From Burkholderiales bacterium (lineage in GTDB: Bacteria > Pseudomonadota > Gammaproteobacteria > Burkholderiales > Burkholderiaceae_E): a stretch of DNA of 45,601 bases. The notes below the pieces were generated by a model, which searched no databases, was not told where the DNA came from, and saw nothing but the letters and a program-made list of their open reading frames with translations. Position 1 is the first letter of the stretch. Each line of letters begins with the position of its first letter. The position numbers and the translations under genes were made by a program. This document shows, one piece after another, positions 12,968-29,283 of this stretch. Location of the stretch: positions 1 to 45,601 of the forward strand of contig JAPLQE010000012.1 in NCBI GenBank assembly GCA_026399835.1, given 5' to 3'.

Positions 12968-13846
12968 TCAGGATTCGTAGCGCCGTCCGCGTTCGAGCAG
13001 TTCGGGCGTACCGATCGTCCGGTTGAGTCCGTCGAAGTCGAGCATGCGGTCGCGCCACGCGGCCGTGCCGCCTGCCTGCGCCAGGTCGGCGAAATAGCCC
13101 TGCAGCGTGCGGGCGACCACGCGCACCGTCGCGCCGGGGAAGATCGCGATCCGGAAGCCGCGTTCCTGCAGCGCCCGGGCGTGCTGCACCGGCGTCTTGC
13201 CGCCCTCGACCATGTTGGCGAGCAGCGGCACGCGCGCACCGAAGCGGGCGCAGGCCGCGTCCATCTGCTCGGGCGTGCGCAGCGCCTCGATGAACAGCGC
13301 GTCCACGCCGCACTCGAGATAGCGTTCGGCCCGCTCGAAGGCCGCCTCCACGCCCTCGACCGCGACCGCGTCGGTGCGGGCCATCACGAGCGTGCCGGCG
13401 TCGTGCCGCGCGTCGAGCGCGGCGCGCAGCTTGCCGCACATCTCCGCGACCGGCACCACGCCCTTGCCATCGAGGTGGCCGCAGCGCTTGGGGAACGACT
13501 GGTCCTCGATCTGGATCATCGCCGCACCCGCGCGCTCCAGGCCGCGCACGGTGCGCTGCACGTTGATCGCGTTGCCGAAGCCGGTGTCCGCGTCGACGAT
13601 CACCGGCACCGATACGCGCTCGGCGATCTGCTCGAGCGTCTGCTGGACCTCGGTGAAGGTGGTCAGCCCGACGTCCGAGCGGCCGAGCCGCGTATACGCG
13701 ATCGACGCGCCCGACAGGTACAGCGCCTGCAGGCCCGCCTGCTCGGCGAGCAGCGCGGTCAGCGCGTCGTAGACGCCCGGTGCGACCAGGATCTCGGGGC
13801 GGGCGAGGCGGTCCTTCAGCGACGGTGTGCGCTGCGCTGCGTTCAT
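12968..13846 (-). CDS. Isocitrate lyase/PEP mutase family C-C lyase (dimethylmalate or methylisocitrate lyase-like)
   Basis: TIM-barrel enzyme of 292 residues and the last gene of the 12-gene operon. Family signatures are VAPGVYDALTALLAEQAG (about residues 20-37), VDADTGFGNAINV (about 88-100; the Mg-binding Asp lies here) and the active-site loop KRCGHLDGK (about 122-130), whose Cys is the general base in lyases. That Cys argues for a C-C lyase (2-methylisocitrate, 2,3-dimethylmalate or oxaloacetate cleavage) rather than PEP mutase. Its ATG overlaps the stop of the FAD dehydrogenase (ATGA). With the LeuCD-type hydratase upstream, cleavage of a hydrated branched malate to pyruvate plus a short acid is the inferred role. 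Confidence 0.82.
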   Translation of the reverse strand: MNAAQRTPSLKDRLARPEILVAPGVYDALTALLAEQAGLQALYLSGASIAYTRLGRSDVGLTTFTEVQQTLEQIAERVSVPVIVDADTGFGNAINVQRTVRGLERAGAAMIQIEDQSFPKRCGHLDGKGVVPVAEMCGKLRAALDARHDAGTLVMARTDAVAVEGVEAAFERAERYLECGVDALFIEALRTPEQMDAACARFGARVPLLANMVEGGKTPVQHARALQERGFRIAIFPGATVRVVARTLQGYFADLAQAGGTAAWRDRMLDFDGLNRTIGTPELLERGRRYES

Positions 13847-15306
13847 GTCGTCTCCATGTTCTCGAACGTGCGGGCGATCGTGCCTGCCGCGATCGCCCCA
13901 CCGGCGATGGCGCTCAGCAGGCCGTTGCCCGACAGGTAGCCCCACACCGCGTTGCCGGACACGCCGCGCGCGGCGCCGCCGGCGGCGAGCAGGTTCGGCA
14001 TCGGCCGGCCGTCGGCGTCGAGCACGCGGCAGCGCGCGTCGACGTCGAGGCCGCCCTGGGTGTGGAAGAGCGCCCCGGTGACCCTGACCGCGCAGTACGG
14101 CGGGGCGAGGCGGCGGGTGAAGCGGCGGGCAGGTCTCGGCTCGGCACCCGCGTGGCGCCCATCGCCCACGTCGCCCGCTTCGCCCACGTCGCCCGCTTCG
14201 CCCGCTTCGCCCGCATCGCCCGCGTCACCCGCGTCGCCGGGCGGTGCGACCGACGCCAGCGTGTCGGCGAGCACCGTCGCATCGCAGCCGATCAGCGCCG
14301 CGAGCGCGGTGACGTCCGAGGCATCGTGCACCGCACCCGCGGCCTCGGCATCGCGGAAGTCTGGAAAGCCGCGGGCCAGCGCGCGCAGCGGCGCATCGAA
14401 GACGTTCCAGGCGATGCCGCCCGGCTGCTCGAGGACGCGCACGGCGGCCTCGGAGTAGCCCTGGGTCTCGTCGTGGAAGCGGCGCCCGTGCGCATTGACC
14501 TGGATGCCGCCCTCGGTCATCGGGGCCCAGGTGATCAGCACGCCCTGCGGCACGGCCCAGGACCCGTGGCCCTGGTAGCCGCCGAGGTCGGCCAGGCGCG
14601 CGCCGAGCCCGCGCCCCCAGGCGATCGCGCTGCCGTCGTTGCCGACGTGGCCGCCGAAGACCGCGTCGCGCATCTCGGGCAGCCACTCGCGGACCATCGC
14701 CGGATTGCCGCCGAAGCCGTTGCAGGCCAGCAGCAGCGCCTCGCAGCCCAGGTGCTCGAGGCGCCCGTCCGGTCGCTCGAAGCCGACGCCGATCATGCGC
14801 TGCGCGTCGTCGCACCAGAGTTCGACGACTCGGGCACGCGTCAGCAGCACGGCACCCGCGCGCTGCGCGGCGGCGTCGAGCGCGGCCAGCAGCGCGGCAC
14901 CGGTGCGCTCGGGCAGCGCGTGCATGCGGCGCACCGAATGGCCGGGGTAGAGGAAGCCGTCGAGCAGCTCGAAGGACACGCCATGGTCGCGCCGCAGGCG
15001 GTCGATCGCGGGAGCGATGGCGGCGACGAAGGCGTCCACCAGCTCGGGCGCGGCGGTGCCGTGCGCCTTGGCGCGGATGTCGCGTGCGAAGGCGGCGGAG
15101 TCGTCGACGACGCCGGCCTCGCGCTGCACGGCGGTGCCGGCGGCCGGCACGAAGCCCGAGGACAGCGCCGTCGAGCCGCGCGGCGCGTCGTCGCGCTCGA
15201 GCAGCACGCAGTCGATGCCGGCATCGCGCAGCAGGATCGCGGCGACCTGCCCGCAGGCCCCGGCGCCGACGATCGCGACCGGCACGGCGGGCGTGTCGGG
15301 CGGCAT
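13843..15306 (-). CDS. FAD-dependent dehydrogenase (fumarate reductase / KstD-like)
   Basis: Flavoprotein of 487 residues. The dinucleotide fold VAIVGAGACGQVAAIL starts at residue 10, followed by LLERDD, a substrate-domain segment QGHGSWAVPQGVL and the C-terminal flavin motif GGAARGVSGNAVWGYLSGNG with two glycine turns. Family members add or remove a carbon-carbon double bond next to a carboxylate or ketone. The ATG at 15306 begins just before the fold. A GTG at 15414 would give a GTGA overlap with the upstream gene and 36 extra Ala/Pro-rich residues. Around residues 357-381 a Gly-X-X tract encoded by 9-bp repeats interrupts the family sequence. Inferred role in the operon: desaturation of an acid intermediate. 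Confidence 0.8.
   Translation of the reverse strand: MPPDTPAVPVAIVGAGACGQVAAILLRDAGIDCVLLERDDAPRGSTALSSGFVPAAGTAVQREAGVVDDSAAFARDIRAKAHGTAAPELVDAFVAAIAPAIDRLRRDHGVSFELLDGFLYPGHSVRRMHALPERTGAALLAALDAAAQRAGAVLLTRARVVELWCDDAQRMIGVGFERPDGRLEHLGCEALLLACNGFGGNPAMVREWLPEMRDAVFGGHVGNDGSAIAWGRGLGARLADLGGYQGHGSWAVPQGVLITWAPMTEGGIQVNAHGRRFHDETQGYSEAAVRVLEQPGGIAWNVFDAPLRALARGFPDFRDAEAAGAVHDASDVTALAALIGCDATVLADTLASVAPPGDAGDAGDAGEAGEAGDVGEAGDVGDGRHAGAEPRPARRFTRRLAPPYCAVRVTGALFHTQGGLDVDARCRVLDADGRPMPNLLAAGGAARGVSGNAVWGYLSGNGLLSAIAGGAIAAGTIARTFENMETT
14161..14232. repeat. 9-bp tandem repeat tract inside the FAD dehydrogenase gene
   Basis: Eight units of pattern nnCGCCCnC (for example TTCGCCCGC and GTCGCCCGC) run without interruption. 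In the gene they encode collagen-like triplets GDA, GEA and GDV. A repeat of three codons can expand or shrink without a frameshift. Confidence 0.85.
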
Positions 15307-15410
15307 CGCGGCGGCACGCACGATGGCGGGCTCGCGGCGAGGCGCGGCCGCGGCGCCCGCATCCCCCGCGCCGTCGGGCGGTACGACCGGTGCGTGCCCG
15401 AGCGGCGAGC

Positions 15411-16040
15411 TCACGCCGGCCGGCCCGCGGCCAGCCGCGCCGCCCAGTCGGCGCAGTCGAGCACTTCGCCGACCGTCGCGAGGTCGGCGAGGCTGGTCGC
15501 ATGCACCGACTCGCGAAAGGCCGCGCAGCCGTCGCCGAGCACCTGCACCGCGTACTCGCGCACATGCGCATCGCGCGCCGTGCTGGCGACGCCGCCGTTG
15601 GTGACGATGCCGCAGACCACGACGGTCTCGATGCCGGCATGGCGCAGCACCCAGTCGAGCTGCGTCATGTGGAAGGCCGAGTAGGCGACCTTGTCGACCG
15701 CGACGTCCACGTACGGCGCGAGCCCGTCCACCACCGCCTGACCGCGGCTGCCGGGGGCGAAGTCGCCGCGCGCGAGGAACGGGCGCAGCGCACGCAGGTG
15801 CGCGGACACCATCGGCTCGCCGGCGGCGTCCGGCCACAGCGTGAATCGGCTGGCCACGACCATGCCGCCGGCGGCCTTCAAGGCGCGTGCGAGCGGCGCC
15901 ACGCGCGCCGGCAGCGCGCGCGCCGCCTCGCTCGCCGCGCCGCCGCGCGCGTAGGCGCCGTCGGGCGCGAGGAAGTCGTTCTGCAGGTCGACGGCGAGCA
16001 GCGCGGTGCGCCGGGGATCGAACAGATGGGACGCGCTCAT
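15411..16040 (-). CDS. Isochorismatase-fold hydrolase lacking the usual nucleophile Cys
   Basis: A 209-residue alpha/beta protein of the cysteine-hydrolase/isochorismatase superfamily. The conserved Asp (LAVDLQNDF near residue 19) and Lys (VDKVAYSAF near 117) are present. At the third position the family normally has T-N-x-C-V-x-S-T; here it is TNGGVAST, so Gly replaces the Cys. A Cys four to six residues upstream (VVVCGIVTN) is not in the usual spot. True isochorismatases also lack this Cys. Relatives include N-carbamoylsarcosine amidase, maleamate amidase and nicotinamidase. It overlaps hyuA (ATGA), so hydrolysis of the HyuAB product was the expected role, but the missing Cys makes amide hydrolysis uncertain. 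Confidence 0.8.
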   Translation of the reverse strand: MSASHLFDPRRTALLAVDLQNDFLAPDGAYARGGAASEAARALPARVAPLARALKAAGGMVVASRFTLWPDAAGEPMVSAHLRALRPFLARGDFAPGSRGQAVVDGLAPYVDVAVDKVAYSAFHMTQLDWVLRHAGIETVVVCGIVTNGGVASTARDAHVREYAVQVLGDGCAAFRESVHATSLADLATVGEVLDCADWAARLAAGRPA

Positions 16041-18130
16041 GCGGACTCCGGAGACGGTGCGGGCGAGGCGGCGACGGCGCGGATCACCAGGTTGCCGAGC
16101 GTATCGACCGCGGCCGCGAAACCGGGCTCGATCCAGGTGGTGGTGTCGGGCTGCTCGAGGATCGCCGGGCCCTCGATGCGCGCGCCGGCGGGCAGCTCGA
16201 GCCGCGCGAATCGGCGTGCCTCCCACCAGCGGCCGGCATGGTGCACGCGCTGCGTGCCGAGCGGCGCGGGCATCGCGGTCGCCGTGGGGCCGAGCACCGC
16301 GAGGTCGAAGTGCGGGCGCTCCCCGATCCGCGCACAGCGCAGGTTCACCACGCGCGGCGCGATGCCCTCGAGGGTCGCGCCGAACGCGTCGCGGTAGGCG
16401 CCGGAGAAGGCCCGCGCCACGCCCTCGGCGTCGAGCGCGTCGCGCGCGATGCCGACCCGCACGGTATGCGTCTGGCCGGTGTAGAGCATGTCGAGCTCGA
16501 TCACCTCGTGGACCGCGGCGAGCGCCACGCCCGCCGAGTCGAGCCGCGCCTGCGCGGCCGTGGCCATCGCGTCGAGCTGCGCGCGCAGCGCGTCGAAGTC
16601 GACGTCGGCGAGCGCGCGCGAGACGGTGCGCACGTCGTCGTGGCGCAGGTCGGCGATCACGCAGCCGAGCGCCGAGGTCACGCCCGGATAGCGCGGCACC
16701 AGGCCGGTCTCGACGCCGATCGCGCGCATCATCGCGCACACGTGCAGCGCGCCGCCGCCGCCGAAGGGCATGTAGGCGAAGCGGCGCGGGTCGTGGCCGC
16801 GCTCGATCGACACCACGCGCACCGCGCCCGCCATCCGCGCATCGGCGACCGTCAGGATCGCCTCGGCGGCGGCGAGCACCTCGAGCCCGAGGGGCTCGGC
16901 GACATGGCGACGGATCGCCTCGTAGGCCTGCCCCGGGTCGAGCGCGGCGAGCAGCCCGCCGCCGAGCGGGCGCTCGGCCGCGATGCGCCCGAGCAGCACG
17001 TTCGCATCGGTGACCGTGGGCCGCGTGTTGCCGCGCCCATAGCACGCCGGTCCGGGCACGCTGCCGGCCGACTCGGGGCCGACCTGCAGCAGCCCGCCCG
17101 AGTCGACACTGGCGATCGAGCCGCCACCGGCGCCGATCGTCTCGATACGGATCATCGGCGCGCGCACCACCATGCCGAACTCGATCGCGGTCTGCTCGGC
17201 GAGCGCGGGCCGCCCGCCTGCGACCAGCGACACGTCGAACGAGGTGCCGCCCATGTCGCCGGTGATGACGTCGGCGAAGCCCGCCGCGCGAGCGATCGCC
17301 GCGCAGGCGATGACGCCGGCCGCCGGCCCCGACAGCGCGGTCGCCACCGGCCGCTCGCAGGCGGTGGCGAGCGACATCGTGCCGCCGTTGCTCTGCACCA
17401 CCAGCAGCTCGCCGGCGAAGCCGCCGGCCCGCAGGTCGGCATCGAGCCGGCCGAGGTAGCCGCCCACCACCGGCTGCAGCGCGGTGTTGAGCACCGCGGT
17501 CGAGCAGCGCTCGAACTCGCGGATCTCGGGCAGCACCTCGGCCGCCGCGGTGACGAAGGGGTTGGGCCAGAGCGCGCGCACCGCGTCGGCGGCGGCGCTC
17601 TCGTTGGCGGCGTTGGCGTAGGCATTGACGAAGAACACGCAGACCGCGTCGCAGCCCGCCGCGCGCAGCGCCCGCGCCGCCTCGCGCACCTGCGCGAGAT
17701 CGACCGGCAGCAGCACCTCGCCCGAGGCGAGCACGCGCTCATCGACCTCGAGCCGCAGGTCGCGCGGCACCACCGGCACGAACGCGCCGCGCAGGCCCCA
17801 GGTGCGCGGGCGGTCGCGCCGACGCATCTCCAGCACGTCGCGAAAGCCGCGCGTGGTGATGAGCCCGGTGCGAGCCACCTTGCGCTCGAGCAGCGCGTTG
17901 GTGGCCACCGTGGTGCCGTGCACGATGGTCGCAATCGACGCGGGTGCGGCGTCGGTGCGCGCGATGCCGTCCATGAAGCCGCGGGCCTCGTCGCCGCGCG
18001 TGGACGGCACCTTGACGATGCGGGCGACGCCGCGCGCCTCGTCGAGCACGAACAGGTCGGTGAAGGTGCCGCCGACGTCGACGCCGACGACGGTGCGGCC
18101 CGATGCACTCATCGTGCTGATCGCGCTCAT
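16037..18130 (-). CDS. Hydantoinase/oxoprolinase subunit A (HyuA family)
   Basis: Catalytic ATPase-type subunit of 697 residues. The ASKHA-like ATP site is seen as GVDVGGTFTDLFVLDEA (about residues 15-31), IVHGTTVATNALLER (about 68-82), ITGDMGGTSFDVSL (about 290-303) and TIGAGGGSIASVDSGG (about 330-345). HyuA with HyuB couples ATP hydrolysis to opening of 5-oxoproline, hydantoin or lactam rings, or to carboxylation of ketones. The ATG at 18130 overlaps the hyuB stop (ATGA); a second ATG at 18112 is possible. The carboxylase subgroup usually has a third small subunit, not seen here, which favours a ring-opening role. Exact substrate unknown. Confidence 0.87.
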   Translation of the reverse strand: MSAISTMSASGRTVVGVDVGGTFTDLFVLDEARGVARIVKVPSTRGDEARGFMDGIARTDAAPASIATIVHGTTVATNALLERKVARTGLITTRGFRDVLEMRRRDRPRTWGLRGAFVPVVPRDLRLEVDERVLASGEVLLPVDLAQVREAARALRAAGCDAVCVFFVNAYANAANESAAADAVRALWPNPFVTAAAEVLPEIREFERCSTAVLNTALQPVVGGYLGRLDADLRAGGFAGELLVVQSNGGTMSLATACERPVATALSGPAAGVIACAAIARAAGFADVITGDMGGTSFDVSLVAGGRPALAEQTAIEFGMVVRAPMIRIETIGAGGGSIASVDSGGLLQVGPESAGSVPGPACYGRGNTRPTVTDANVLLGRIAAERPLGGGLLAALDPGQAYEAIRRHVAEPLGLEVLAAAEAILTVADARMAGAVRVVSIERGHDPRRFAYMPFGGGGALHVCAMMRAIGVETGLVPRYPGVTSALGCVIADLRHDDVRTVSRALADVDFDALRAQLDAMATAAQARLDSAGVALAAVHEVIELDMLYTGQTHTVRVGIARDALDAEGVARAFSGAYRDAFGATLEGIAPRVVNLRCARIGERPHFDLAVLGPTATAMPAPLGTQRVHHAGRWWEARRFARLELPAGARIEGPAILEQPDTTTWIEPGFAAAVDTLGNLVIRAVAASPAPSPESA

Positions 18131-19833
18131 CGCGGCACCCCCGCGCCGGTCGCACCGTCGACCAGGTAGCCGAGGGCCTCGTCCGCCGCGTGCAGCGCCG
18201 CGGGCCGCGCTGCGGGCGGCCCCCAGCCGCCGCCACCGGGCGTCTCCAGCCGCACGCGGTCGCCGCGCACCAGCCGGATGCCGACCATCTTCGAGCCCAT
18301 CGGCGGCACGTGCCAGCGCCCGTCGTGATGCCACGAGAAGCGATTGGCGGCGGCCTCGCCGCCGCCGGCCACGCCCTTCGGGCCCGAGCGAGCGCGCTCG
18401 CCGAACAGGAAGCCCTCGGCCGCATCCTCCATCAGCTCGATCTCGTAGACCGCGCCCAGCCCGCCACGGTGCGTGCCGTCGCCGCCCGAGCCCGGGCGCA
18501 GCGCCCACTGCGTGAAGCGCACCGGATACGCGGCCTCGAGGATCTCCAGAGGCGGGATGGTCGCCATCGAGATCGGCGCGTTGCCGTGGTTCAGGCCGTC
18601 GCCGTCCGAATGCGCGCCGTGGCCGCCGCCGAAGAAGCTGAACATCACCCAGCGCTGGCCGCGGCGCGCCGCGTCGCTGCGGAGGCCGGCGATCGACAGC
18701 GCGTTGATCGTGCCGTACGCATGGCCCACCGCGCGCTCGGGCTCGGCGAGCGCGGCGGCGCCGAACACCACGTCGATCATCCGCAGGATGGTCTCGGTAT
18801 AGCCGCCGACCGGGCGCGGGCGGGTGGCCGAGATCACCAGCCCGTCGGGGATCACGATCTCCACCGCATCGAGCACGCCGGCGTTGGCCGGCACGTCGGG
18901 GAACAGGTGCTTGAGCGCGACGTAGCAGGCCGCCACAGCGGTCGCCCGCGAGATGTTGACCGGCCCGGCACAGGCCGGTGCCGAGCGCGAGAAGTCGAGC
19001 GTCATGCGGTCGCCGTCGACCGACAGGTCCAGCGCGATCGCGAGCGGCGCATCGACGATGCCGTCGTTGTCGAGCACGTCGTCGAAGCGCCAGCGGCCGT
19101 CGGGCAGCGCTGCCACGTGCTCGCGCATCAGCCGCAGCGCGCGCACGCGCAGCAGGCGCATCGCCTCGAGCACCGTGTCGGCGCCGTGCTCGTCGAGCAG
19201 CGCCACCGTACGCCGCGCGCCGAGCTCCAGCGCGACGAGCTGGCCGGCGAGGTCGCCGCGCAGGCTGTCGGGCAGCCGCGTGTTGGCCTTGAGGATCGCC
19301 AGCACGTCGTCCTGCAGGTCGCCGTCGCGCAGGATGCGCACCGGCGGGATCTGCACCGCCTCCTGCCAGCACTCGGTGGCCGCCGGGTTGTAGTTGCCCG
19401 GCACCGCGCCGCCCACGTCGTGCCAGTGCGCGGCCGACGCGAGGTGGCAGACCAGGCGCCCGCGGTGGAAGAGCGGGCGCACCAGCTTGAAGTCGTTGGC
19501 GTGGGTGCCGCCCTCGTACGGGTCGTTGAACAGCCAGACGTCGCCGTCGCGCAGGCCGCCACGCGTGGCCGCGGTGGCGATGGCGGCACGCACCGCGAAG
19601 GCCATCGCGCCGACGAACACCGGCAGGCCCGCGGTGCCCTGCACCAGCGTGTCGCCGGTGGCCGCGTCGTACAGGCCGTGGCAGGCGTCATGGGCCTCGG
19701 CGATGATCGGGTTGAACGCGCTGCGGTACAGGGTCGCGTCCATCTCGTCGGCGATCTGCTCGAGCCGGCCCTTGAGCACCGCGAGCGTGACCGGGTCGAT
19801 CGTGGGCGTCGACGTCGGGGCGGGGTCAGCCAT
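18127..19833 (-). CDS. Hydantoinase/oxoprolinase subunit B (HyuB family)
   Basis: Partner subunit of 568 residues. Conserved segments include DPVTLAVLKGRLEQIADEMD (residues 13-32), FNPIIAEAHDACHG near 43, the phrase NDPYEGGTHANDFKLV near 103-118, GAVPGNYNPAATE near 142 and a C-terminal GGDGTHRGGLG near 442, all hallmarks of HyuB. It forms the active heteromer with HyuA. It overlaps the LeuD-like gene by 8 nt upstream and hyuA by 4 nt downstream, so the complex is made from one transcript. The substrate is taken to be the compound imported by the co-transcribed Liv-type transporter or an intermediate derived from it. Confidence 0.87.
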   Translation of the reverse strand: MADPAPTSTPTIDPVTLAVLKGRLEQIADEMDATLYRSAFNPIIAEAHDACHGLYDAATGDTLVQGTAGLPVFVGAMAFAVRAAIATAATRGGLRDGDVWLFNDPYEGGTHANDFKLVRPLFHRGRLVCHLASAAHWHDVGGAVPGNYNPAATECWQEAVQIPPVRILRDGDLQDDVLAILKANTRLPDSLRGDLAGQLVALELGARRTVALLDEHGADTVLEAMRLLRVRALRLMREHVAALPDGRWRFDDVLDNDGIVDAPLAIALDLSVDGDRMTLDFSRSAPACAGPVNISRATAVAACYVALKHLFPDVPANAGVLDAVEIVIPDGLVISATRPRPVGGYTETILRMIDVVFGAAALAEPERAVGHAYGTINALSIAGLRSDAARRGQRWVMFSFFGGGHGAHSDGDGLNHGNAPISMATIPPLEILEAAYPVRFTQWALRPGSGGDGTHRGGLGAVYEIELMEDAAEGFLFGERARSGPKGVAGGGEAAANRFSWHHDGRWHVPPMGSKMVGIRLVRGDRVRLETPGGGGWGPPAARPAALHAADEALGYLVDGATGAGVPR

Positions 19834-20329
19834 GGGTGCGTTCCTGGGCGAGTCGGCGCTTCAACTGCTCGAAGAGGCCGCCCGCGGCCACCATGTCGAG
19901 CAGGAAGCCGGGGATGGGTTCGCAGCGCAGCACGCTGCCGTCTTCGGCGGTGACGGTGCCCGCTGCGGCATCGAAGGCGATGCGCTCGCCGTCGCGCAGG
20001 CGCGGCGCGTCGGCGCAGGCCAGCGGCAGCAGGCCGACGTTGAAGGCGTTGCGCAGGTACAGCCCGCCGAAGGACGGCGCGATCACCGCGGCCACGCCCA
20101 GGTGGACCAGCACCGAGGCGGCCTGCTCGCGCGAGGAGCCGATGCCGAAGCCCGGCCCCGCGACGATCACGTCGCCCGGGCGCACGCCCGTGGCGAAGTC
20201 CGGCCGCAGCGCGGCCAGGCAGTGACGCGCGGTCACCTCGATGCCGGACTTCATCGTGTGCCCGGGCGCGAGCTGGTCGGTGTCGACGTCGGCGGGCAGC
20301 GTCCAGACGCGGTGGCGCATCACGGTCAC
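19826..20329 (-). CDS. Aconitase-family small subunit (LeuD-like, short type)
   Basis: Swivelling-domain subunit of 167 residues. Motifs are PADVDTDQLAPGHTMK (about residues 12-27), GPGFGIGSSREQA (about 58-70; the Ser-Arg segment binds substrate carboxylate) and IAPSFGGLYLRNAFNVGLLPL near 83-103. At 167 residues it is of the short, archaeal/DmdB type rather than the biosynthetic LeuD of proteobacteria (about 200 or more). It pairs with the gene just upstream (ATGA overlap). The dimer should hydrate or isomerise an unsaturated dicarboxylate such as a maleate derivative. Assignment to leucine biosynthesis is unlikely given its length and operon. Confidence 0.83.
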   Translation of the reverse strand: MTVMRHRVWTLPADVDTDQLAPGHTMKSGIEVTARHCLAALRPDFATGVRPGDVIVAGPGFGIGSSREQAASVLVHLGVAAVIAPSFGGLYLRNAFNVGLLPLACADAPRLRDGERIAFDAAAGTVTAEDGSVLRCEPIPGFLLDMVAAGGLFEQLKRRLAQERTHG

Positions 20330-21597
20330 GACAGCACCTCGCGCGGATCGGTGATCGTGCCGCGCAGCGCGGACGCGGCGACGGTGTACGGCGAGCCGAG
20401 GAAGACCCGCGCGTCGTCCGCGCCCATGCGGCCGCGGAAGTTGCGGGCGGTGCTGGAGATGACGGTGGACCCGGCCGGGATCTGCCCGCCGTAGCCGGCG
20501 CAGGCGCCGCAGCCGGTGGGCAGCAGCCGCGCGCCGGCCTCGCGCAGCACGCGCATCGTGCCGTCGCGCTCGGCGGCCGCGGCGTCGGCGAGGCTGGCCG
20601 GCGCCACCATCAGGTCCACGCCCGCGGCGATCCGCGCGCCGCGCAGCACGCGCGCGGCGGCCTGCAGGTCCTCGAGCTTAGCGCCGGTGCAGGCGCCGAC
20701 GTAGGCGACCTGGACGGGCGTGCCCGCCGACTCGCCGACCGGCCGCGCGTTCGCCGGGCTGTGCGGCAGCGCCACCTGCGGCGCGAGCGCGGCGGCGTCG
20801 ACGACCTGCTCCTCGTCGATGCGCGCGCCCGGGTCGGTGTGCCACGGGCCCGGGTCGACGCCGCTCACGCCGTGCGCGGCGAGCCACTCGACGGTGACCG
20901 CGTCGGGTGCGACCAGCCCGACCTGCGCACCCAGCTCGGCGGTCATGTTGCACAGGGTCATGCGCTCGGCCATGCCCATCGCCGCAACGCCGCTGCCTGC
21001 GAACTCCACCGCGCGGTAGCCGGCGCCGCTCATGCCCAGGCGCCCGATCAGCGCGAGCATCACGTCCTTGGCCGACACGCCGTCGGCGAGCCGCCCGTCG
21101 AGGCGCACCCGCAGCGTCTCGGGCACCCGCAGCCAGATCCGCCCGGTGACCGTGACACCCAGCATCTCGGTGGCGCCGATGCCGAACATGTACGCGCCGA
21201 ACGCGCCGCCCGTGGGCGAGTGCGAGTCGCCGCCGACGCAGAACATCCCCGGGCGCAGGTGGCCCTGCTGCGGCAGCACCACGTGGCAGATGCCGATCGA
21301 GTCGTGCACGCGGGTCAGGCCCGCCTCGGCCGCCCAGTCGCGCGCGATCTTCACGATGCGGCGCGACTCGTCGTCCTGCTCGGGCACGTAGTGGTCCATC
21401 ACCAGCACCAGCTTCGACGGATCGCGCACCCGCGTGCCCAGCGCCGCCAGCATCGGCGCGAGGCGCCGCGGGCCGCTGGAGTCGTGGAACATCGCGAGGT
21501 CGACCTCGCAGTCGACATACTCGCCGGGGCGCACGGTCGGGCGTCCGGCGGCGCGTGCGACCAGCTTCTCGGCGAGGGTGGCGGGTGCGGCGTCCAT
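20326..21597 (-). CDS. Aconitase-family large subunit (LeuC-like, short type; possible dimethylmaleate hydratase-like)
   Basis: Iron-sulfur hydro-lyase subunit of 423 residues. Cluster cysteines are in YVGACTGAKLEDL (near residue 299) and GCGACAGYGG (near 363-372), with HDSIGICHVVLPQQG and GGDSHSPTGGAFGAYMFGIG upstream, as in the LeuC/homoaconitase group. The length (about 420) places it in the short type, which includes dimethylmaleate hydratase DmdA and archaeal enzymes, not the roughly 470-residue LeuC of proteobacterial leucine synthesis. The ATG at 21597 overlaps the livF stop by one base; a GTG one codon earlier is also possible. The neighbouring lyase suggests the product is a substituted malate. 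Confidence 0.83.
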   Translation of the reverse strand: MDAAPATLAEKLVARAAGRPTVRPGEYVDCEVDLAMFHDSSGPRRLAPMLAALGTRVRDPSKLVLVMDHYVPEQDDESRRIVKIARDWAAEAGLTRVHDSIGICHVVLPQQGHLRPGMFCVGGDSHSPTGGAFGAYMFGIGATEMLGVTVTGRIWLRVPETLRVRLDGRLADGVSAKDVMLALIGRLGMSGAGYRAVEFAGSGVAAMGMAERMTLCNMTAELGAQVGLVAPDAVTVEWLAAHGVSGVDPGPWHTDPGARIDEEQVVDAAALAPQVALPHSPANARPVGESAGTPVQVAYVGACTGAKLEDLQAAARVLRGARIAAGVDLMVAPASLADAAAAERDGTMRVLREAGARLLPTGCGACAGYGGQIPAGSTVISSTARNFRGRMGADDARVFLGSPYTVAASALRGTITDPREVLS

Positions 21598-22307
21598 CAC
21601 AGCCCCAGGTAGGCGCGGCGCAGCGCATCGCTCGCCAGCAGCTCGGCGGGGCGGCCCTCGAAGCGCACCGCGCCGTTCTCCAGCACGTAGGCGCGGTCGG
21701 CGATCTCCAGCGACTGCGCGACGTTCTGCTCCACCAGCAGCACCGAGAGCCCCTCGCCGTGCAGCCGGAGGATCAGCGCGAAGAGCTCCTCCACCAGCAG
21801 CGGCGACAGCCCGAGCGAGGGCTCGTCGAGGATCAGCAGCCGCGGCTCGGCCATCAGCCCGCGGCCGATCGCCAGCATCTGCTGCTCGCCGCCGCTCATC
21901 GTGCCGGCCTTCTGCGCGAGCCGCTCGGCCAGCCGCGGGAAGATCGCCAGCACCCGCTCGAGGTTGGCGGCGCGCCGCGCGCGGCCGCGCGCGAACGAGC
22001 CGAGCTCGAGGTTCTCGCGCACGTCGAGGTCGGGGAAGACCCGCCGGCCTTCGGGCACCTGGATCAGCCCGGCGCGCACCACGTCGCGATAATGAGCGCC
22101 GCTCAGGTCGCGGCCATCGAAGCTCACGCGGCCGGACCAGGCGGGCACGATGCCGCAGACGGTGTTGTTGAGCGTGGACTTGCCGGCGCCGTTGCTGCCG
22201 AGCAGGGCGACCACCTCGCCCGCGGCCACCGTCAGGTCGACGCCGCGCAGCACCTCGGTGCGGCCGTAGCCGCCGCGCAGGCCCGCGATCTCAAGCAGCG
22301 CGGTCAC
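21597..22307 (-). CDS. Branched-chain-amino-acid-type ABC transporter ATPase LivF
   Basis: ATPase of 236 residues. Walker A is GSNGAGKST near residue 36, the signature is TMSGGEQQMLAIGRGLM near 134 and Walker B is LLILDEPSLGLSP near 155. PEGRRVFPDLDVRENLELG near 90 is diagnostic for LivF. The GTG start overlaps the livG stop (GTGA). It works with LivG in the cytoplasm to power import through LivH/LivM. Liv-type systems in catabolic operons often carry aromatic or dicarboxylic compounds rather than leucine, so the substrate is left open. Confidence 0.88.
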   Translation of the reverse strand: MTALLEIAGLRGGYGRTEVLRGVDLTVAAGEVVALLGSNGAGKSTLNNTVCGIVPAWSGRVSFDGRDLSGAHYRDVVRAGLIQVPEGRRVFPDLDVRENLELGSFARGRARRAANLERVLAIFPRLAERLAQKAGTMSGGEQQMLAIGRGLMAEPRLLILDEPSLGLSPLLVEELFALILRLHGEGLSVLLVEQNVAQSLEIADRAYVLENGAVRFEGRPAELLASDALRRAYLGL

Positions 22308-23065
22308 GAGGCCGCTCCCCGCAGCCGCGCCGCGGTCCCGTGCCCGAGATACGCCTCGACCACCGCCGGATCGGCGGTGACCTGCGCGGGCGTGCCCTGC
22401 GCGATCAGCCGCCCCTGGGCGAGCACCCACACATGGCCGGCGAGGTTCATCACCGCCTGCATCACATGCTCGATCATCAGCACGGTAACGCCGCCCGCCG
22501 CGATGTCGCGGACCACCGGGATCATCTCGGCGATCTCCTGCGGGTTGAGCCCGGCGAGCACCTCGTCGAGCAGCAGCAGCCTGGGGCGCGTGGCGAGCGA
22601 GCGCGCGAGCTCGAGCCGCTTGCGCCCGGCGACCGTCAGCTCGGCGGCCGGCCGGTCGAGCTGCGTGCCCAGCCCCACCCGCTCGGCCACCTCGGTGGCC
22701 GCCGCGAGCGCGGCCGCGCGCCGGGGCTCGTGCAGGTGCGCACCGACCGCGACGTTCTCGCGCACCGTCTGCGCAGCGAAGGGCTGCACGATCTGGAAGG
22801 TGCGGGTCATGCCCGCGCGGGCCGCGAGGTGCGGCGCCAGCCCGGTCACGTCGCGGCCGTCGAAGCGCACGCGGCCGCTGTCGGGCCGCAGGAAGCCCGA
22901 CATCAGCGCGAACAGCGTCGTCTTGCCCGCGCCGTTGGGCCCGATCAGCGCGGTGAGCGTGCCGGGCGCCACCTCGAGGCTGACGTCCTGCACCGCGCGC
23001 AGCCCGCCGAAGGCGCGCGAGACGCCCGTCACGGACAACAGCGGCGACAGCAGCGGCTCAGCCAT
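22304..23065 (-). CDS. Branched-chain-amino-acid-type ABC transporter ATPase LivG
   Basis: ATPase of 253 residues. Walker A is GPNGAGKTT near residue 43, MTRTFQIVQPFAAQTVRENV near 85 is typical LivG, the signature region is AAELTVAGRKRLELARSLA near 140 (degenerate, with TVAGRKR in place of LSGGQQR) and Walker B is LLLLDEVLAGLNP near 163. Such signature variation is seen in other LivG proteins. The gene overlaps livM by 8 nt and livF by 4 nt. Confidence 0.87.
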   Translation of the reverse strand: MAEPLLSPLLSVTGVSRAFGGLRAVQDVSLEVAPGTLTALIGPNGAGKTTLFALMSGFLRPDSGRVRFDGRDVTGLAPHLAARAGMTRTFQIVQPFAAQTVRENVAVGAHLHEPRRAAALAAATEVAERVGLGTQLDRPAAELTVAGRKRLELARSLATRPRLLLLDEVLAGLNPQEIAEMIPVVRDIAAGGVTVLMIEHVMQAVMNLAGHVWVLAQGRLIAQGTPAQVTADPAVVEAYLGHGTAARLRGAAS

Positions 23066-24053
23066 CGCGGCGCTCCGGGGCGATGCCGGTGGCCGCGTCG
23101 CGCCGCCCGCCGAACAGGTCCCGCACCGAGCGCCCCGCGCCCGACAGCCCGCGCGGCAGGAAGGTCACGATCAGCACCAGCACCGTGCCGTAGATCACCA
23201 TGTTCAGCCCCGGCAGCTGGCCGAACAGGTTGCGCGTCGTCTCCGCCAGCAGGTGCAGCGCCAGCGCGCCCAGCACCGGCCCCCACAGCGTGCCCATGCC
23301 GCCGACGATCGCCGCCACCAGCGCCTCGACCGAGGTCGCCGGCCCGAAGGCGATGCCCGGGTCGATGTACTGGAACACCTGCACGTAGAACGCGCCGCCC
23401 GCGCCCATCAGCGCGCCCGACAGCACGATGGCACCGAGCTTGATGCCGAACGGATCCACGCCCATCGCGCGCGCGGCGTCCTCGTTGTCGCGCACCGCCT
23501 GCAGCCGCGCGCCGAAGCGCGAGTGGCGCAGCCACGCGGTGACCGCCAGCGCGACCACCACGAAGCCCAGCGCCAGCAGCAGGTAGCCGCGGCGCGAGCC
23601 GAACTGCATGTTGGCCGCCGACTCGCGCAGCGGCACCATCAGGCCGACGCCCCCGCCGGTGAAGTCGACCGACACCGCGAGGATGCGGAACACCTCGGCG
23701 AAGGCGAGCGTGACCAGCGCGAAGTACGAGCCGCGCAGCCCGTAGCGGAAGGTCAGGGCACCGACCAGCGCGCCCACGAGCGCCGCCGCGGCCACCGCCA
23801 GCACCAGTGCCAGCCAGGCGTTCAGGCCGAAGCTGAGCTGCGCGATCGCCTGCACGTAGGCCCCGGTGCCGAAGAAGAGCGCATGGCCGAACGAGAACTG
23901 CCCGCCGAAGCCGCCGAGCACGTTCCACGCCTGCGCCAGCAGCGCCGCGTACAGCGTCATCGTGAGGAAGGTCAGCGCCACGCCCGAGTCGGTGCTGAAG
24001 GCCAGGCCCAGCACGGCGAGCGCGAAGGCGAGGATGGCGGCGGCGTCGCGCAT
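23058..24053 (-). CDS. Branched-chain-amino-acid-type ABC transporter permease LivM
   Basis: Polytopic inner-membrane protein of 331 residues with hydrophobic segments throughout (for example ILAFALAVLGLAF at 7-19 and LVLAVAAAALVGALVGAL at 83-100). The Liv permease motif GGFGGQFSFGHALFFGTGAY (about residues 47-66) and the coupling loop with AVRDNEDAARAMGVDPFGIK (about 187-206) are present. The ATG at 24053 is chosen because it lies one base after the livH stop; a longer open frame upstream would overlap livH. An Arg-rich tail follows the last membrane span. Confidence 0.87.
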   Translation of the reverse strand: MRDAAAILAFALAVLGLAFSTDSGVALTFLTMTLYAALLAQAWNVLGGFGGQFSFGHALFFGTGAYVQAIAQLSFGLNAWLALVLAVAAAALVGALVGALTFRYGLRGSYFALVTLAFAEVFRILAVSVDFTGGGVGLMVPLRESAANMQFGSRRGYLLLALGFVVVALAVTAWLRHSRFGARLQAVRDNEDAARAMGVDPFGIKLGAIVLSGALMGAGGAFYVQVFQYIDPGIAFGPATSVEALVAAIVGGMGTLWGPVLGALALHLLAETTRNLFGQLPGLNMVIYGTVLVLIVTFLPRGLSGAGRSVRDLFGGRRDAATGIAPERRDG

Positions 24054-24054
24054 C

Positions 24055-24927
24055 TCAGGCCCGCGCCCCGAACAGGCCCTGCGGCCGGAACAGCAGCACC
24101 GCGATGAAGATCGCGAAGATGCCGATCTGCCCGAGCGACTCGCCGAGGAACAGGCCACCGAGCGACTCGACCACGCCGATCAGCAGCCCGCCCACCAGCG
24201 CCCCGGCGAAGCTGCCCATGCCGCCCAGCACCACGATCGTGAAGGCGACCAGCACGAAGCCGCCGCCGACCTGCGGGTTCACGTAGTAGGCCGGCAGCAG
24301 GAAACACGCGGCCGCGCCCAGGCAGGCCAGCCCGATGCCGAAGCTCATCGCGTAGACATGGTCGACGTCGATGCCCATCAGCTTGGCGCCCTGTTTCTCC
24401 TTGGCCACCGCGCGGATCGCCCGGCCGAGGTCGGTGCGCTGCACGGTCCACAGCAACACCGCGGAGGCGACCAGCGCGCCCGCGAAGGCGATCAGCTTGG
24501 GCAGCGCGATCATCGCCGGGCCGATCGCCACCGTCGTCAGCGTGTACGGCGTGTCGATCGTGCGGGTGTCCGACTTGAACGCCATCAGCGCGAGGTTCTC
24601 CATCACGATCGACAGCCCCAGCGTCACCAGCAGGATGTTCTCGTCCTTGCCGTGGCTGGCGCGGTTGATGACCACGCGCTGCAGCAGGTAACCGAGCGCG
24701 AACATGCCGGGCACCACGATCGGCAGCGCCAGGTACGGGTCGATGCCCAGGTGCGTCTTGAGCAGCCAGACCGCGTAGAGCGCGACCATCAGCGCCGCGC
24801 CGTGCGCGAAGTTGACGATGTGCAGCACCCCGTAGATCAGCGTCAGCCCGAGCGCGACCAGCGCGTAGACCGCGCCGGTCGTCAGGCCGTTGAGGACCGA
24901 CGGGAAGAGGACGTCGAACGAGAGCAC
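24055..24927 (-). CDS. Branched-chain-amino-acid-type ABC transporter permease LivH
   Basis: Inner-membrane permease of 290 residues. The opening VLNGLTTGAVYALVALGLTL (about residues 11-30) followed by GVLHIVNFAHGAALMV is the LivH hallmark, and the coupling segment is AIRAVAKEKQGAKLMGID near 156-173. LVAFTIVVLGGMGSFAGALV near 228 is the conserved C-terminal Liv permease motif. It lies 15 bp after livK and pairs with LivM to form the channel. Confidence 0.88.
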   Translation of the reverse strand: MLSFDVLFPSVLNGLTTGAVYALVALGLTLIYGVLHIVNFAHGAALMVALYAVWLLKTHLGIDPYLALPIVVPGMFALGYLLQRVVINRASHGKDENILLVTLGLSIVMENLALMAFKSDTRTIDTPYTLTTVAIGPAMIALPKLIAFAGALVASAVLLWTVQRTDLGRAIRAVAKEKQGAKLMGIDVDHVYAMSFGIGLACLGAAACFLLPAYYVNPQVGGGFVLVAFTIVVLGGMGSFAGALVGGLLIGVVESLGGLFLGESLGQIGIFAIFIAVLLFRPQGLFGARA

Positions 24928-24942
24928 GGCGCAGCGCGGTCC

Positions 24943-26145
24943 TCAGGCCTTGAGCGGGAACACCGGCTCGGCCTCGCGGTAGTCGCGCGGGATGATCACG
25001 CGGATGTCGCCCTTGATCACCTGCGTCATCAGCGGCTGCGCGCCCTGGTTCTGGCCGTCGACGAACTTCGTCGGACCGTAGGGCATGATGTGGTCCGAGA
25101 AGGTGCTCGAGGCCAGCGCATCGATGATCGCCGCCCGGTCGGTCGACTTCGCGCGCTCGATCGCATCGGCCAGCAGGCGCATGGCGGTGTACGCCATGAA
25201 CACCTCGTAGCTGAAGAACAGCCCCTTGGCCTCGACCCGCTTCCTCAGTTCCAGGCTGCGCTTGTCGCGCGGGTTGAACCAGTGGTTGCAGTCGATGATG
25301 CCGTTCGAGGCGTCCGGGAACTCCTTGAGGAACTTGTAGCTCGAGGCCGCCCCGCCCAGCACCGAGTAGATCGCCTTGGGCTGCACCTTCTGCTGCTGCA
25401 TCGTGCGCACCAGCAGCGCGTACTCGTTGTAGTAGTTGGCCGGGATCACGATGTCCGGGTTCACCGACTTCATCCTCAGCACGATGTTGTTGAAGTCGCG
25501 GGTGGGGTTCGCGTGCTTGACCACCTCCTTCACCTCGTAGCCGTAGCCGGGCAGCTCGCGCGACAGCAGGTTGGCGGTGCCGGTGCCGAACAGCGACTCC
25601 TCGTGGATGATCATCACCGTCTTCGCAGGCTTGCCCGCGGCGGTGTTGAGCACGTGCAGGTTCGCGACCGCGACCTGCGCGCAGGTGCGGTAGCCCGGGC
25701 CGAAGCGGAAGGTGTTCTTCAGCCCGCGCTCGACGATCTGGTCGGCCACGCCGACGTCGACCACGTGCGGCAGGCCGTGGCGGGCCGCGGCCTGCGTGGT
25801 CGCCAGGCAGATCGCCGACGCGAAGGCGCCCAGCACCGCCGAGACGCCCGCCTCGTTCATCTTCTCGACCTCGGCGGCGCCCGCCTGCGGCGTGGACTGC
25901 GCGTCGCCGAGCAGGGCCTCGAGCTTGGCGCCGCCGAGCGACTTGATGCCGCCCGCCTTGTTGACGTCCTCGAGCGCCATCAGCGCGCCCTCGCGGCACT
26001 GCTGGCCCGAGTAGGCGAGCGCCCCGGTGACCGGGTGCAGCACGCCGATCTTGACCGTGCGCGGCTGCGCACCGCCCACCAGCGGGAAGGCGGTGGCGGA
26101 GCCGGCGACGGCCGACTGCTTCAGGAACCTGCGACGCGTGCTCAT
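24943..26145 (-). CDS. Liv-type ABC transporter substrate-binding protein with Tat-like signal
   Basis: Periplasmic binding protein of 400 residues (Peripla_BP_6 / LivK family). The N-terminus STRRRFLKQSAVAG is a good twin-arginine signal, followed by the family opening TVKIGVLHPVTGALAYSGQQ (about residues 30-49). ISAVLGA-type and YNEYALLV segments mark the two lobes. A GAGGAG ribosome site lies 8 bp before the ATG, and the ATG overlaps the GntR stop (ATGA). The ligand is unknown: relatives in catabolic operons bind amides, aromatic acids or urea rather than leucine. Tat export suggests folding before transport. Confidence 0.86.
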   Translation of the reverse strand: MSTRRRFLKQSAVAGSATAFPLVGGAQPRTVKIGVLHPVTGALAYSGQQCREGALMALEDVNKAGGIKSLGGAKLEALLGDAQSTPQAGAAEVEKMNEAGVSAVLGAFASAICLATTQAAARHGLPHVVDVGVADQIVERGLKNTFRFGPGYRTCAQVAVANLHVLNTAAGKPAKTVMIIHEESLFGTGTANLLSRELPGYGYEVKEVVKHANPTRDFNNIVLRMKSVNPDIVIPANYYNEYALLVRTMQQQKVQPKAIYSVLGGAASSYKFLKEFPDASNGIIDCNHWFNPRDKRSLELRKRVEAKGLFFSYEVFMAYTAMRLLADAIERAKSTDRAAIIDALASSTFSDHIMPYGPTKFVDGQNQGAQPLMTQVIKGDIRVIIPRDYREAEPVFPLKA

Positions 26146-26990
26146 CTGTGCTCCTCGTGCGGCGCCCGACTGCTGCGGGCGGGTTGACGGACCGGCCGCG
26201 CCGCAGGGGCGGGCACCGGCGATTCTTTGCTGACCCAGACCCGCGCATCGACACCGCCGATGCGCGAGAGCTCCATCTCGTACCGGTACCGGTCCGGCCG
26301 GTACAGCCCGTGCAGCCACTGCACCGGGCGCTCGTCGGCATCGAGCACCAGGCGGTTGACCGCGAGCAGCGCCGAGCCGACCGCGACGTCCAGGTGCGTG
26401 GCCACGGCGGCATCGGCCAGCCGCGCGCTGATCGTCTGCGTGGCGCGCCCGATCCGCACGCCGGCCTGCTCGAGCAGCACCAGGATGGGCGTGCGCGCGA
26501 GCTCGCGACGGCCGAAGCGCGCGCCCAGGCGCGCCGGCACCCAGGTGGTGATGTGCGAGATCGGGCCGTCGCGGGTGGCGCGTACCCGCACCGCCTTCTG
26601 CACCGCGGCGCCCGCGGCGAGGTCCAGCGCGCGCGCGACCGCCTCGGGCGCGGCGAGCGTCTCGCAGGTCACGACGCGCACCGAGGTCCGCCGACCCAGG
26701 GTCACGATGTTCTCGAGCAGGCCCTCGAGCGGCACGGCGGGCGCATCGTCCTCGTCGGCGCGGCGCACGGGCACGGTGCCGCGCCCGGGCGTGCGCTCGA
26801 TCAACCCCTCGGCGGCGAGCGACTCGAGCGCGCGGCGCACCGTCACCCGGGCCACGCCGAAGTCGGCGGCCAGGCGCGGCTCGCTCGGCAGGCCCTCGGC
26901 CCAGCGCCCTTCCAGGAGCTGCTCGCGCAGCACCAGGTAGACCTGGTGATACTTGGGCAAGGGGAGCGAAACGGGCAGACCGCGGACCAT
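26142..26990 (-). CDS. GntR-family (HutC/UTRA) regulator of the downstream operon
   Basis: A 282-residue transcription factor. The N-terminal winged helix is at about residues 12-78 (YHQVYLVLREQLLEG, LPSEPRLAADFGVARVTVRR, ALESLAAEGLIERTPGRGT). The C-terminal UTRA ligand-binding domain runs from about 95 to 255 (VQKAVRVRATRDGPISH, VLLEQAGVRIGRATQTISA). It is the first gene of the 12-gene operon, overlaps livK (ATGA) and diverges from the biotin-carboxylase gene. HutC-type regulators usually bind the substrate or an early intermediate, so it is likely a repressor of its own operon. The ATG at 26990 places the start only about 10 bp after the predicted -10. Confidence 0.87.
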   Translation of the reverse strand: MVRGLPVSLPLPKYHQVYLVLREQLLEGRWAEGLPSEPRLAADFGVARVTVRRALESLAAEGLIERTPGRGTVPVRRADEDDAPAVPLEGLLENIVTLGRRTSVRVVTCETLAAPEAVARALDLAAGAAVQKAVRVRATRDGPISHITTWVPARLGARFGRRELARTPILVLLEQAGVRIGRATQTISARLADAAVATHLDVAVGSALLAVNRLVLDADERPVQWLHGLYRPDRYRYEMELSRIGGVDARVWVSKESPVPAPAARPVRQPARSSRAPHEEHR

Positions 26991-26999
26991 GGGCACGGA

Positions 27000-27028
27000 C
27001 GGTAGGTGCGCACCGCTTGTCCTGTCAA
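27000..27028 (-). promoter_or_regulatory. Predicted promoter of the 12-gene GntR-Liv-Hyu operon
   Basis: On the minus strand a perfect -35 TTGACA (27028-27023) is followed after 17 bp by CTACCG (27005-27000), a poor -10. The start site would fall within a few bases of the GntR ATG, so the mRNA may be leaderless or nearly so. Confidence 0.4.
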
Positions 27029-27041
27029 TGGAACAAACAGG
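27021..27041. promoter_or_regulatory. Inverted repeat over the -35 of the operon promoter, candidate GntR operator
   Basis: CCTGT (27021-27025) and ACAGG (27037-27041) are inverted around an 11-bp centre, and an overlapping TTGTCC/GGAACAA pair adds further symmetry. The repeat covers the TTGACA -35, so binding of the divergently positioned GntR protein would block transcription. Confidence 0.4.
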
Positions 27042-27202
27042 CGCGTCGGGTCTTTGTGCGGCGCCGAACCCGACCCGTCGAATTGCCCCGCCCCCCGCGG
27101 CGCTGGTAGCCTGCGGACAGGGCCCGCCCAGACCCTTCCCGCTCGCTCCACCGACCGTGCGCCCTGCGCCGCGGGCCGGTGCCGTCAAGGTGCACAGACC
27201 GC

Positions 27203-29227: not shown

Positions 29228-29283
29228 GATGAGCCCCCGATGAGGCCGGTGCGAGGCGCCTGGGCGAACGAGGGCCGGCGGCG

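Follow-up and report, generated by a model that had tools for sequence, protein, structure and literature searches.

A conserved 13-gene unit with exchangeable ring-opening modules: a candidate catabolic operon for small cyclic imides

Gene content and conservation of the unit

The stretch of 45,601 nucleotides analyzed here (contig JAPLQE010000012.1 of the Burkholderiales bacterium assembly GCA_026399835.1; hereafter, the window) is one of the 93 contigs (C66) of a genome of 4.95 Mb. Its minus strand encodes a packed unit of 13 genes in the order GntR-LivKHMGF-LeuCD-HyuBA-ISO-FAD-ICL, delineated by open reading frames, codon usage and family searches, where ISO, FAD and ICL denote an isochorismatase-fold protein, an FAD-dependent dehydrogenase and a lyase of the ICL/PEP-mutase family, respectively. 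The unit is conserved in Burkholderiales and Alphaproteobacteria, its ring-opening genes are replaced by non-homologous enzymes at some loci, and ISO carries Gly at the position of the catalytic Cys. We propose a catabolic operon whose substrate is a small ring compound containing nitrogen, most probably a five-membered cyclic imide with a carbon substituent (succinimide or maleimide type), and give this reading, including the pathway outlined below, a probability of about one half. A first-pass annotation had coordinates, strand and families right and had likewise seen a single catabolic unit; its count of twelve genes becomes 13 if LivF, LivG, LivM, LivH and LivK are taken as separate genes. 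The features are as follows.

12968-13846, minus strand: ICL, ICL/PEP-mutase-family lyase (Pfam PEP_mutase and ICL; PrpB-like below the NCBIfam cut-off)
13843-15414 (alternative start 15321), minus strand: FAD, FAD-dependent dehydrogenase, flavocytochrome c/TcuA-like (PF00890)
15411-16040, minus strand: ISO, isochorismatase-fold protein (PF00857)
16037-18130, minus strand: HyuA, hydantoinase/oxoprolinase-family subunit (Pfam)
18127-19833, minus strand: HyuB, hydantoinase B subunit (PF02538)
19826-20329, minus strand: LeuD, small subunit of a LeuD/DmdB/HacB-type hydro-lyase (TIGR02087 above cut-off)
20326-21600, minus strand: LeuC, large subunit of a LeuC/HacA-family hydro-lyase (NF001614 and TIGR01343 above cut-off)
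21597-22307, minus strand: LivF, ABC importer ATPase (named from the first-pass annotation and gene order, as are the next three)
22304-23065, minus strand: LivG, ABC importer ATPase
23058-24053, minus strand: LivM, ABC importer permease
24055-24927, minus strand: LivH, ABC importer permease
24943-26145, minus strand: LivK, periplasmic binding protein (Peripla_BP_6)
26142-26990, minus strand: GntR, regulator with GntR and UTRA domains, first gene of the unit (ATG at 26990)
26991-27202, no strand: divergent intergenic region, presumed promoter (from the sequence)

For comparison we mapped 120 loci in addition to the window, namely 80 named loci (the best 80 of at least 581 confirmed, so that close relatives dominate) and two sets of 20 further regions. 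LeuC is at least 50% identical in 119 of the 120 loci, which fall into 55 groups at 78% LeuC identity; one record among the 119 is a duplicate (L103 = L145). All 13 families, each over at least 75% of its length, are present in 30 loci including the window. Pairwise distances between the families correlate at 0.85-0.98 over these 30 loci and at 0.82-0.98 over 20 Burkholderiales loci; in the latter set, each of six Mantel tests with LeuC had p 0.001. Such correlations indicate co-inheritance rather than function, and shared ancestry alone can also raise them. The arrangement lies far beyond chance, and a real unit is strongly supported. The cross-genome search for the gene set proposed by the first-pass annotation revealed no split, and the notion of unrelated modules stuck together was rejected because all 13 families are co-inherited across the 30 loci.

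LeuC matches with E of at most 1e-90 occur in 39 of 399 genomes of the order, 20 of them (the window's own included) at 53% identity or more. The distribution is patchy, since none of the 12 same-family genomes listed in this search has a LeuC match. ISO was found at 1e-40 in five of the 399 genomes, i.e., the window and four relatives. A phylum sample gave LeuC at 1e-120 in 9 of 398 genomes, and the class of genome G707, taken as Alphaproteobacteria from its likeness to named loci, gave LeuC at 1e-115 in 20 of 240 (4 of 244 in its order). The unit occurs in freshwater, soil and marine Proteobacteria.

The 12 junctions comprise seven 4-nt overlaps, two 8-nt overlaps, two gaps of 1 and 15 bp, and one ambiguous case, which agrees with the earlier description of 4- or 8-nt overlaps, gaps of at most 15 bp and a single ambiguous start. 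The latter concerns ISO-FAD, which are separated by 89 bp if FAD starts at the GTG at 15321, or overlap by 4 nt if it starts at the GTG at 15414 that overlaps the ISO stop. We prefer 15414, because FAD overlaps ISO by 4 nt in all four orthologues compared (L040, L051, L056 and L066) and the residues upstream of 15321 are also present in L051. The order of LivF, LivG, LivM and LivH is kept among the compared loci.

The importer gave no ligand clue from LivK, whose best PDB match is 8wch; in L049 (Paraburkholderia sp. BL9I2N2), where FAD was not called, LivK matches in three pieces, and this copy may be broken. The promoter region of the window contains ATTG-N6-CAAG, overlapping a TTGACA hexamer and one letter off the dyad ATTG-N6-CAAT. 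The exact dyad is found in 14 of 44 upstream regions, representing 6 of 13 LeuC groups, and is absent from the window, as is the strongest dyad, TGTC-N5-GACA. At best, dyads occur in 6-7 of 13 groups, against a maximum of five groups for any 4-letter dyad in 30 shuffles. These sequence patterns weakly suggest a GntR operator candidate.

Divergent to the operon (27203-30786, plus strand) lie a biotin carboxylase gene, starting at 27203 and carrying a biotinyl domain and a methylcrotonyl-CoA carboxylase alpha-type BT domain, and an M81/MlrC metallopeptidase gene. An M81 homologue (58% identity) also follows FAD in the allantoinase-type operon of L129.

Exchange of the ring-opening module and the Cys-less protein ISO

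The best NCBIfam matches of HyuA and HyuB are caprolactamase alpha and beta, at 491.1 and 259.3 bits, respectively, below the cut-off of 1000, and the best PDB match of HyuA is N-methylhydantoinase. Subunits of acetophenone carboxylase match both proteins as well. They could suggest that HyuAB is a carboxylase resembling acetophenone or acetone carboxylase, acting on a ketone with no ring being opened; however, their matches are weaker than those of caprolactamase and N-methylhydantoinase, and ring hydrolases take the place of HyuAB at the same position, so that we consider this reading scarcely credible.

Among the 119 loci, 52 carry HyuB-HyuA-ISO, 11 an allantoinase-like amidohydrolase, 12 a PuuE-like and/or a Cys-bearing isochorismatase-fold protein, three another PuuE-like type and one a mix, while 40 have no ring module (39 without the duplicate, which alters no other count). 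The amidohydrolase scores 230.9 bits against the allantoinase model AllB (cut-off 357.85) and has allantoinases as best PDB matches; the PuuE-like proteins match PuuE below its cut-off. At some loci HyuBA-ISO is replaced by two PuuE-like proteins together with another isochorismatase-fold protein. Thus, three non-homologous ring hydrolases, HyuBA, the allantoinase-like amidohydrolase and the PuuE-like pair, stand beside the same core. The exchange extends to the core itself. A different LeuCD (35-39% identity) adjoins HyuBA-ISO in Tistrella and Azospirillum, and the leuCD genes beside HyuBA-ISO in Sulfitobacter gave no match in a plasmid search. In Roseomonas and Neorhizobium (L166 and L176) an MmgE/PrpD protein, in the former case confirmed by a Pfam run, occupies the place of LeuCD, and Acidiphilium has a CoA-transferase and an HMG-CoA-lyase-like protein, with no ICL annotated within the stretch. 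This exchange of steps supports a route in which a ring, most likely that of a cyclic imide, is opened and deamidated and the product is desaturated to a substituted maleate, hydrated and cleaved at a C-C bond.

Several variants accompany the core. In a further one, AtuA-family proteins (L041-L043 and L046) and a PrpD-looking protein together with a PuuE-like protein (L041, L043 and L058) lie near it. Plasmid p1 of Burkholderia plantarii (L168), typed as conjugative, carries a PuuE pair, a Cys-bearing isochorismatase, GntR, LeuCD, FAD, ICL and a porin, as well as ETF beta, an FAD-binding protein, glutaryl-CoA dehydrogenase (GcdH) and a CoA-transferase. Mo-hydroxylase-type genes, read from the sequence in L091, L111 and L115 and annotated beside the PuuE pair in L177, hint that some variants may begin with the hydroxylation of a heteroaromatic ring. 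A protein with a tautomerase-like segment (below the Pfam cut-off) and a SnoaL-like domain is encoded close to the core, completely or partially, in 11 of the 119 loci, among them L064, L101, L104, L142, L143, L146 and L155, and an annotated tautomerase or DUF4440 gene directly precedes HyuB on the Sulfitobacter plasmids L174 and L175.

Cleavage by an isochorismatase-fold enzyme, as envisaged in the first-pass annotation, holds with regard to the fold but not to ordinary Cys amidase chemistry. The structure model of ISO (pLDDT 92.2) has BiuH, TrtA, RutB and maleamate amidase as nearest folds, and thus shares the fold of cysteine amidases such as BiuH, RutB and NicF. The catalytic Cys, in contrast, is missing: Gly150 aligns with Cys162 of triuret hydrolase (wild type and C162S), Gly occupies this position in 57 of 57 rows, and Asp18, Lys117 and Gly150 are invariant in 16 sequences. 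Judging from these residues, ISO cannot cleave by ordinary Cys amidase chemistry. PhzD and EntB likewise carry Gly at the catalytic-Cys position, and ISO shows their residue pattern, with Asp and Lys kept and Gly instead of Cys. We propose, from sequence comparison, that ISO hydrolyses a half-amide or acts as a partner of HyuAB; that its nearest folds include maleamate amidases speaks for the imide reading.

Two rivals bear on this step. According to the first, a hydantoin or another cyclic ureide would be opened by HyuAB, the AllB-like or the PuuE-like enzymes, leaving an N-carbamoyl product for ISO, in analogy to the breakdown of N-methylhydantoin and allantoin. All three ring-hydrolase types do have ureide-hydrolysing relatives, and the closest structures to the ISO model are biuret and triuret hydrolases and RutB. 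This route, however, would leave an amine, and no aminotransferase or ammonia-lyase family is found among the neighbours recurring in at least three LeuC groups (single loci may possess one, as suggested by an aminotransferase-looking gene in L111); moreover, the relatives of LeuCD, FAD and ICL are known as families acting on nitrogen-free acids. We regard it as quite unlikely. The leftover amino group is also the reason why, among the substrates listed in the first-pass annotation, cyclic imides are a better fit than hydantoins or lactams.

The second rival starts from an unsaturated lactam opened by HyuAB or by a bifunctional AllB-like enzyme, whereupon the resulting enamine would be hydrolysed by the Cys-less ISO through acid catalysis, the chemistry that isochorismatases apply to vinyl ethers. 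Enamidase is such a single bifunctional AllB-like enzyme. The AllB-like modules mostly lack an adjacent amidase (L048 has an ISO-like gene, 31% identical, on the opposite strand), and the triad positions of ISO are Asp, Lys and Gly; excerpts of two studies (PMC4519933, PMC12210187) describe vinyl ether substrates for PhzD/EntB and a catalytic Asp for the homologue VibB. We nevertheless judge this reading very unlikely.

Core enzymes and the proposed route

FAD matches the flavocytochrome c and TcuA models below cut-off (112.7 bits against 369 for the TcuA equivalog), and its PDB relatives are fumarate and urocanate reductases. Since it accompanies ring modules (39 of 49 fully flanked loci with such a module, 1 of 22 without; Fisher p 1.4e-9, ignoring phylogeny), we read FAD as acting on something derived from the ring, and desaturation of a substituted succinate is the activity proposed from its family.

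LeuC and LeuD exceed the cut-offs of their subfamily models (NF001614, 496.7 against 385; TIGR02087, 138.7 against 108.95) and pass no equivalog, the homoaconitase HacAB models being reached at 342.4 of 550 (large subunit) and 115.3 of 229 (small subunit). The GSSRE motif of LeuD is present in 75 of 75 rows. In the alignment, the substrate-recognition loop of LeuD has Lys27 where the homoaconitase motif YLRT has Arg; the residue is Lys in 66 of the 75 rows, Gln in six, Arg in two and Ala in one, and Lys is also found in Cupriavidus loci that lack ICL. This loop sets substrate preference in the LeuCD enzyme family, according to an excerpt of PMC7308503.

ICL belongs to its superfamily (149.9 bits, Pfam cut-off 31.5) and stays below the equivalog of the methylisocitrate lyase PrpB (288.7 bits against 354.4). 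Its PKRCGH motif is present in 51 of 51 rows, and NMVEGG replaces the NITEFG of PrpB in 49 of 51; of the two exceptions, one is a truncated row and one a paralogue. C-C cleavage of a substituted malate is the proposed reaction. The sequence clues conflict, in that LeuD would point to an acidic side chain and ICL to the lack of a PrpB-like carboxylate contact.

A rival reading is a dialkylmaleimide or dialkylmaleate route, in which dimethyl- or ethylmethyl-maleate would come from the ring, be hydrated by a LeuCD resembling dimethylmaleate hydratase and split by an ICL resembling dimethylmalate lyase into pyruvate and propionate or butyrate. Consistent with it, NMVEGG lacks the Thr of PrpB, the PDB relatives of ICL include 2,3-dimethylmalate lyase and petal death protein by sequence likeness, and the passing LeuD model is named LeuD/DmdB. 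On the other hand, the Lys at the homoaconitase Arg position suggests an anionic side chain (although the Cupriavidus LeuD without ICL has it, too), and the GcdH neighbours described below are not needed for propionate or butyrate. Furthermore, hematinic acid was found in leaves and maleimides were not detected in the same study, as far as an excerpt of PMC7318184 states; it also cites earlier reports of both from senescent leaves and lake sediments. On balance we hold the dialkyl route to be unlikely.

For the imide reading, the following route is proposed. Induction would presumably occur via the GntR regulator, and the Liv ABC importer would take up the ring compound. ATP-driven HyuAB would open the ring to a half-amide, from which ISO would free the amide nitrogen, the substrate's neighbouring carboxylate possibly replacing the absent Cys. 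FAD would desaturate the resulting succinate derivative to a substituted maleate, which LeuCD would hydrate to a substituted malate. From this the ICL-family enzyme would release pyruvate (or glyoxylate) together with a carboxylic acid; the latter may be glutarate and would then enter metabolism via glutaryl-CoA. Of the pathway in the first-pass annotation, import, ring opening, desaturation, LeuCD hydration and ICL cleavage are plausible from the families. Gene content, tight packing, conservation as a unit, step replacement, the Cys-to-Gly change and the GcdH neighbours are computed directly; substrate, order of steps, regulation and each catalytic activity are what we infer from them, and to a general imide-to-malate route we give about even odds.

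A clue to the product comes from GcdH, which lies within the fetched stretch of L038, L066, L137, L138, L139, L140, L153 and L156, i.e., 8 of 119 loci and 5 of 55 LeuC groups. The L137 protein is GcdH by a full-length PDB match (~622 bits, E ~1e-186), and the copies of the other loci are 70-97% identical to it. In L137-L139 the gene is divergent to LeuC and lies 34-48 bp before the Cys-bearing isochorismatase gene of the isochorismatase-PuuE set; the divergent arrangement with LeuC is also seen in L153 and L156, at 89-142 bp. Fifteen plasmid regions were fetched from a larger set of matches, and for two of these, L168 and L164 (Tistrella pTM2), identity of the acyl-CoA dehydrogenase to L137 GcdH was measured (71% and 77%, respectively); in both, a CoA-transferase follows, the two being 62% identical. 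If a genome is assumed to have 4,500 genes and one or two GcdH copies, the expectation is 0.09-0.18 groups, and five or more would arise with a probability of 5e-8 to 1.4e-6.

At most, these neighbours suggest glutarate as lyase product and (dihydro)hematinic acid as candidate substrate: glutarate and pyruvate would arise from 2-methyl-3-(2-carboxyethyl)malate, and this in turn from (dihydro)hematinic acid. The operon might then serve as a bacterial route for pyrrolic end products of chlorophyll and heme, in which ring opening and deamidation of the (dihydro)hematinic acid imide would yield a methyl-homotricarballylate or methyl-homoaconitate, LeuCD would add water and ICL would then cleave the product to pyruvate and glutarate, and ISO could dispense with Cys as the maleamate would supply its own nucleophile, the neighbouring carboxylate. 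We offer this extension as a doubtful one. An open-access literature search found no bacterial catabolic gene set for hematinic acid.

A number of observations weigh against the imide route or its glutarate branch. Independent GcdH acquisitions may amount to only three or four, since L038 and L140 have a common context and L066 resembles an ordinary gcd operon, and so few cases may be due to chance across thousands of gene families; a ThiC-looking gene (named from its sequence) adjoins the core in L069, L134 and L135 and thus also recurs in three LeuC groups, possibly by chance with shared ancestry. Among 35 fully flanked HyuAB-type loci, a single one has GcdH nearby, and in the window's genome it resides on another contig with no operon gene nearby. 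The Val of ICL in place of the PrpB Thr is contrary to a PrpB-like carboxylate contact, and apart from the subfamily models for LeuC and LeuD, none of the NCBIfam models matched attains its cut-off. Without the amidase Cys in ISO, the deamidation step has no established mechanism. As to the unit itself, a ring module is missing beside LeuCD in 22 of 71 fully flanked loci, nine of which have ICL, and in G180 about 28 kb separate ISO and a FAD-like gene (39%) from LeuC-HyuBA. Finally, of eight fetched plasmid regions that bear PuuE, five (L169, L170, L173, L177 and L178) have no LeuCD annotated near the PuuE module, and this module is therefore not specific to the LeuCD route.

Significance and comparison with known systems

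The operon joins known families in a new combination, and one component, ISO, is unusual; in line with the first-pass annotation, an open-access literature search found neither a description of this gene set nor a pathway using it. If our reading is right, freshwater, soil and marine Proteobacteria share a pathway for which that search found no description, several steps of which can be filled by non-homologous enzymes. It would be a candidate for how small cyclic imides, possibly chlorophyll and heme end products, rejoin central metabolism, and a Cys-less member of an amidase family poses a mechanistic question.

Parts of the route have counterparts elsewhere. N-methylhydantoin (creatinine) degradation combines ATP-dependent HyuAB with N-carbamoylsarcosine amidase, an isochorismatase-fold enzyme that uses Cys, and yields an amino acid. 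The operon shares the succession of HyuAB and an isochorismatase-fold enzyme, but has Gly for Cys and encodes LeuCD, FAD and ICL alongside. HyuA (NCBIfam, PDB) and HyuB (NCBIfam) find their best matches in caprolactamase CapAB and N-methylhydantoinase, although with 491 and 259 bits they remain below the CapAB cut-off of 1000. With maleamate amidase (NicF/Ami), biuret hydrolase and RutB, ISO has the fold and the triad residues Asp and Lys in common, and differs in the consistent Cys-to-Gly replacement.

For the later steps, nicotinate fermentation by Eubacterium barkeri employs the dimethylmaleate hydratase DmdAB and the dimethylmalate lyase Dml. There, as proposed for the operon, a LeuCD-type hydratase feeds an ICL-family lyase that releases pyruvate and an acid; the operon differs in its upstream enzymes, in having no B12 mutase or isomerase among its 13 genes, and in the possible product glutarate. 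The 2-methylcitrate cycle (PrpD, PrpB) and TcuA provide the second parallel, with a PrpB-like lyase, a TcuA-like FAD enzyme and, in L166 and L176, MmgE/PrpD; the operon's proteins, however, score below the cut-offs of these models, and the ring-opening module and the Liv importer are additional to that system.

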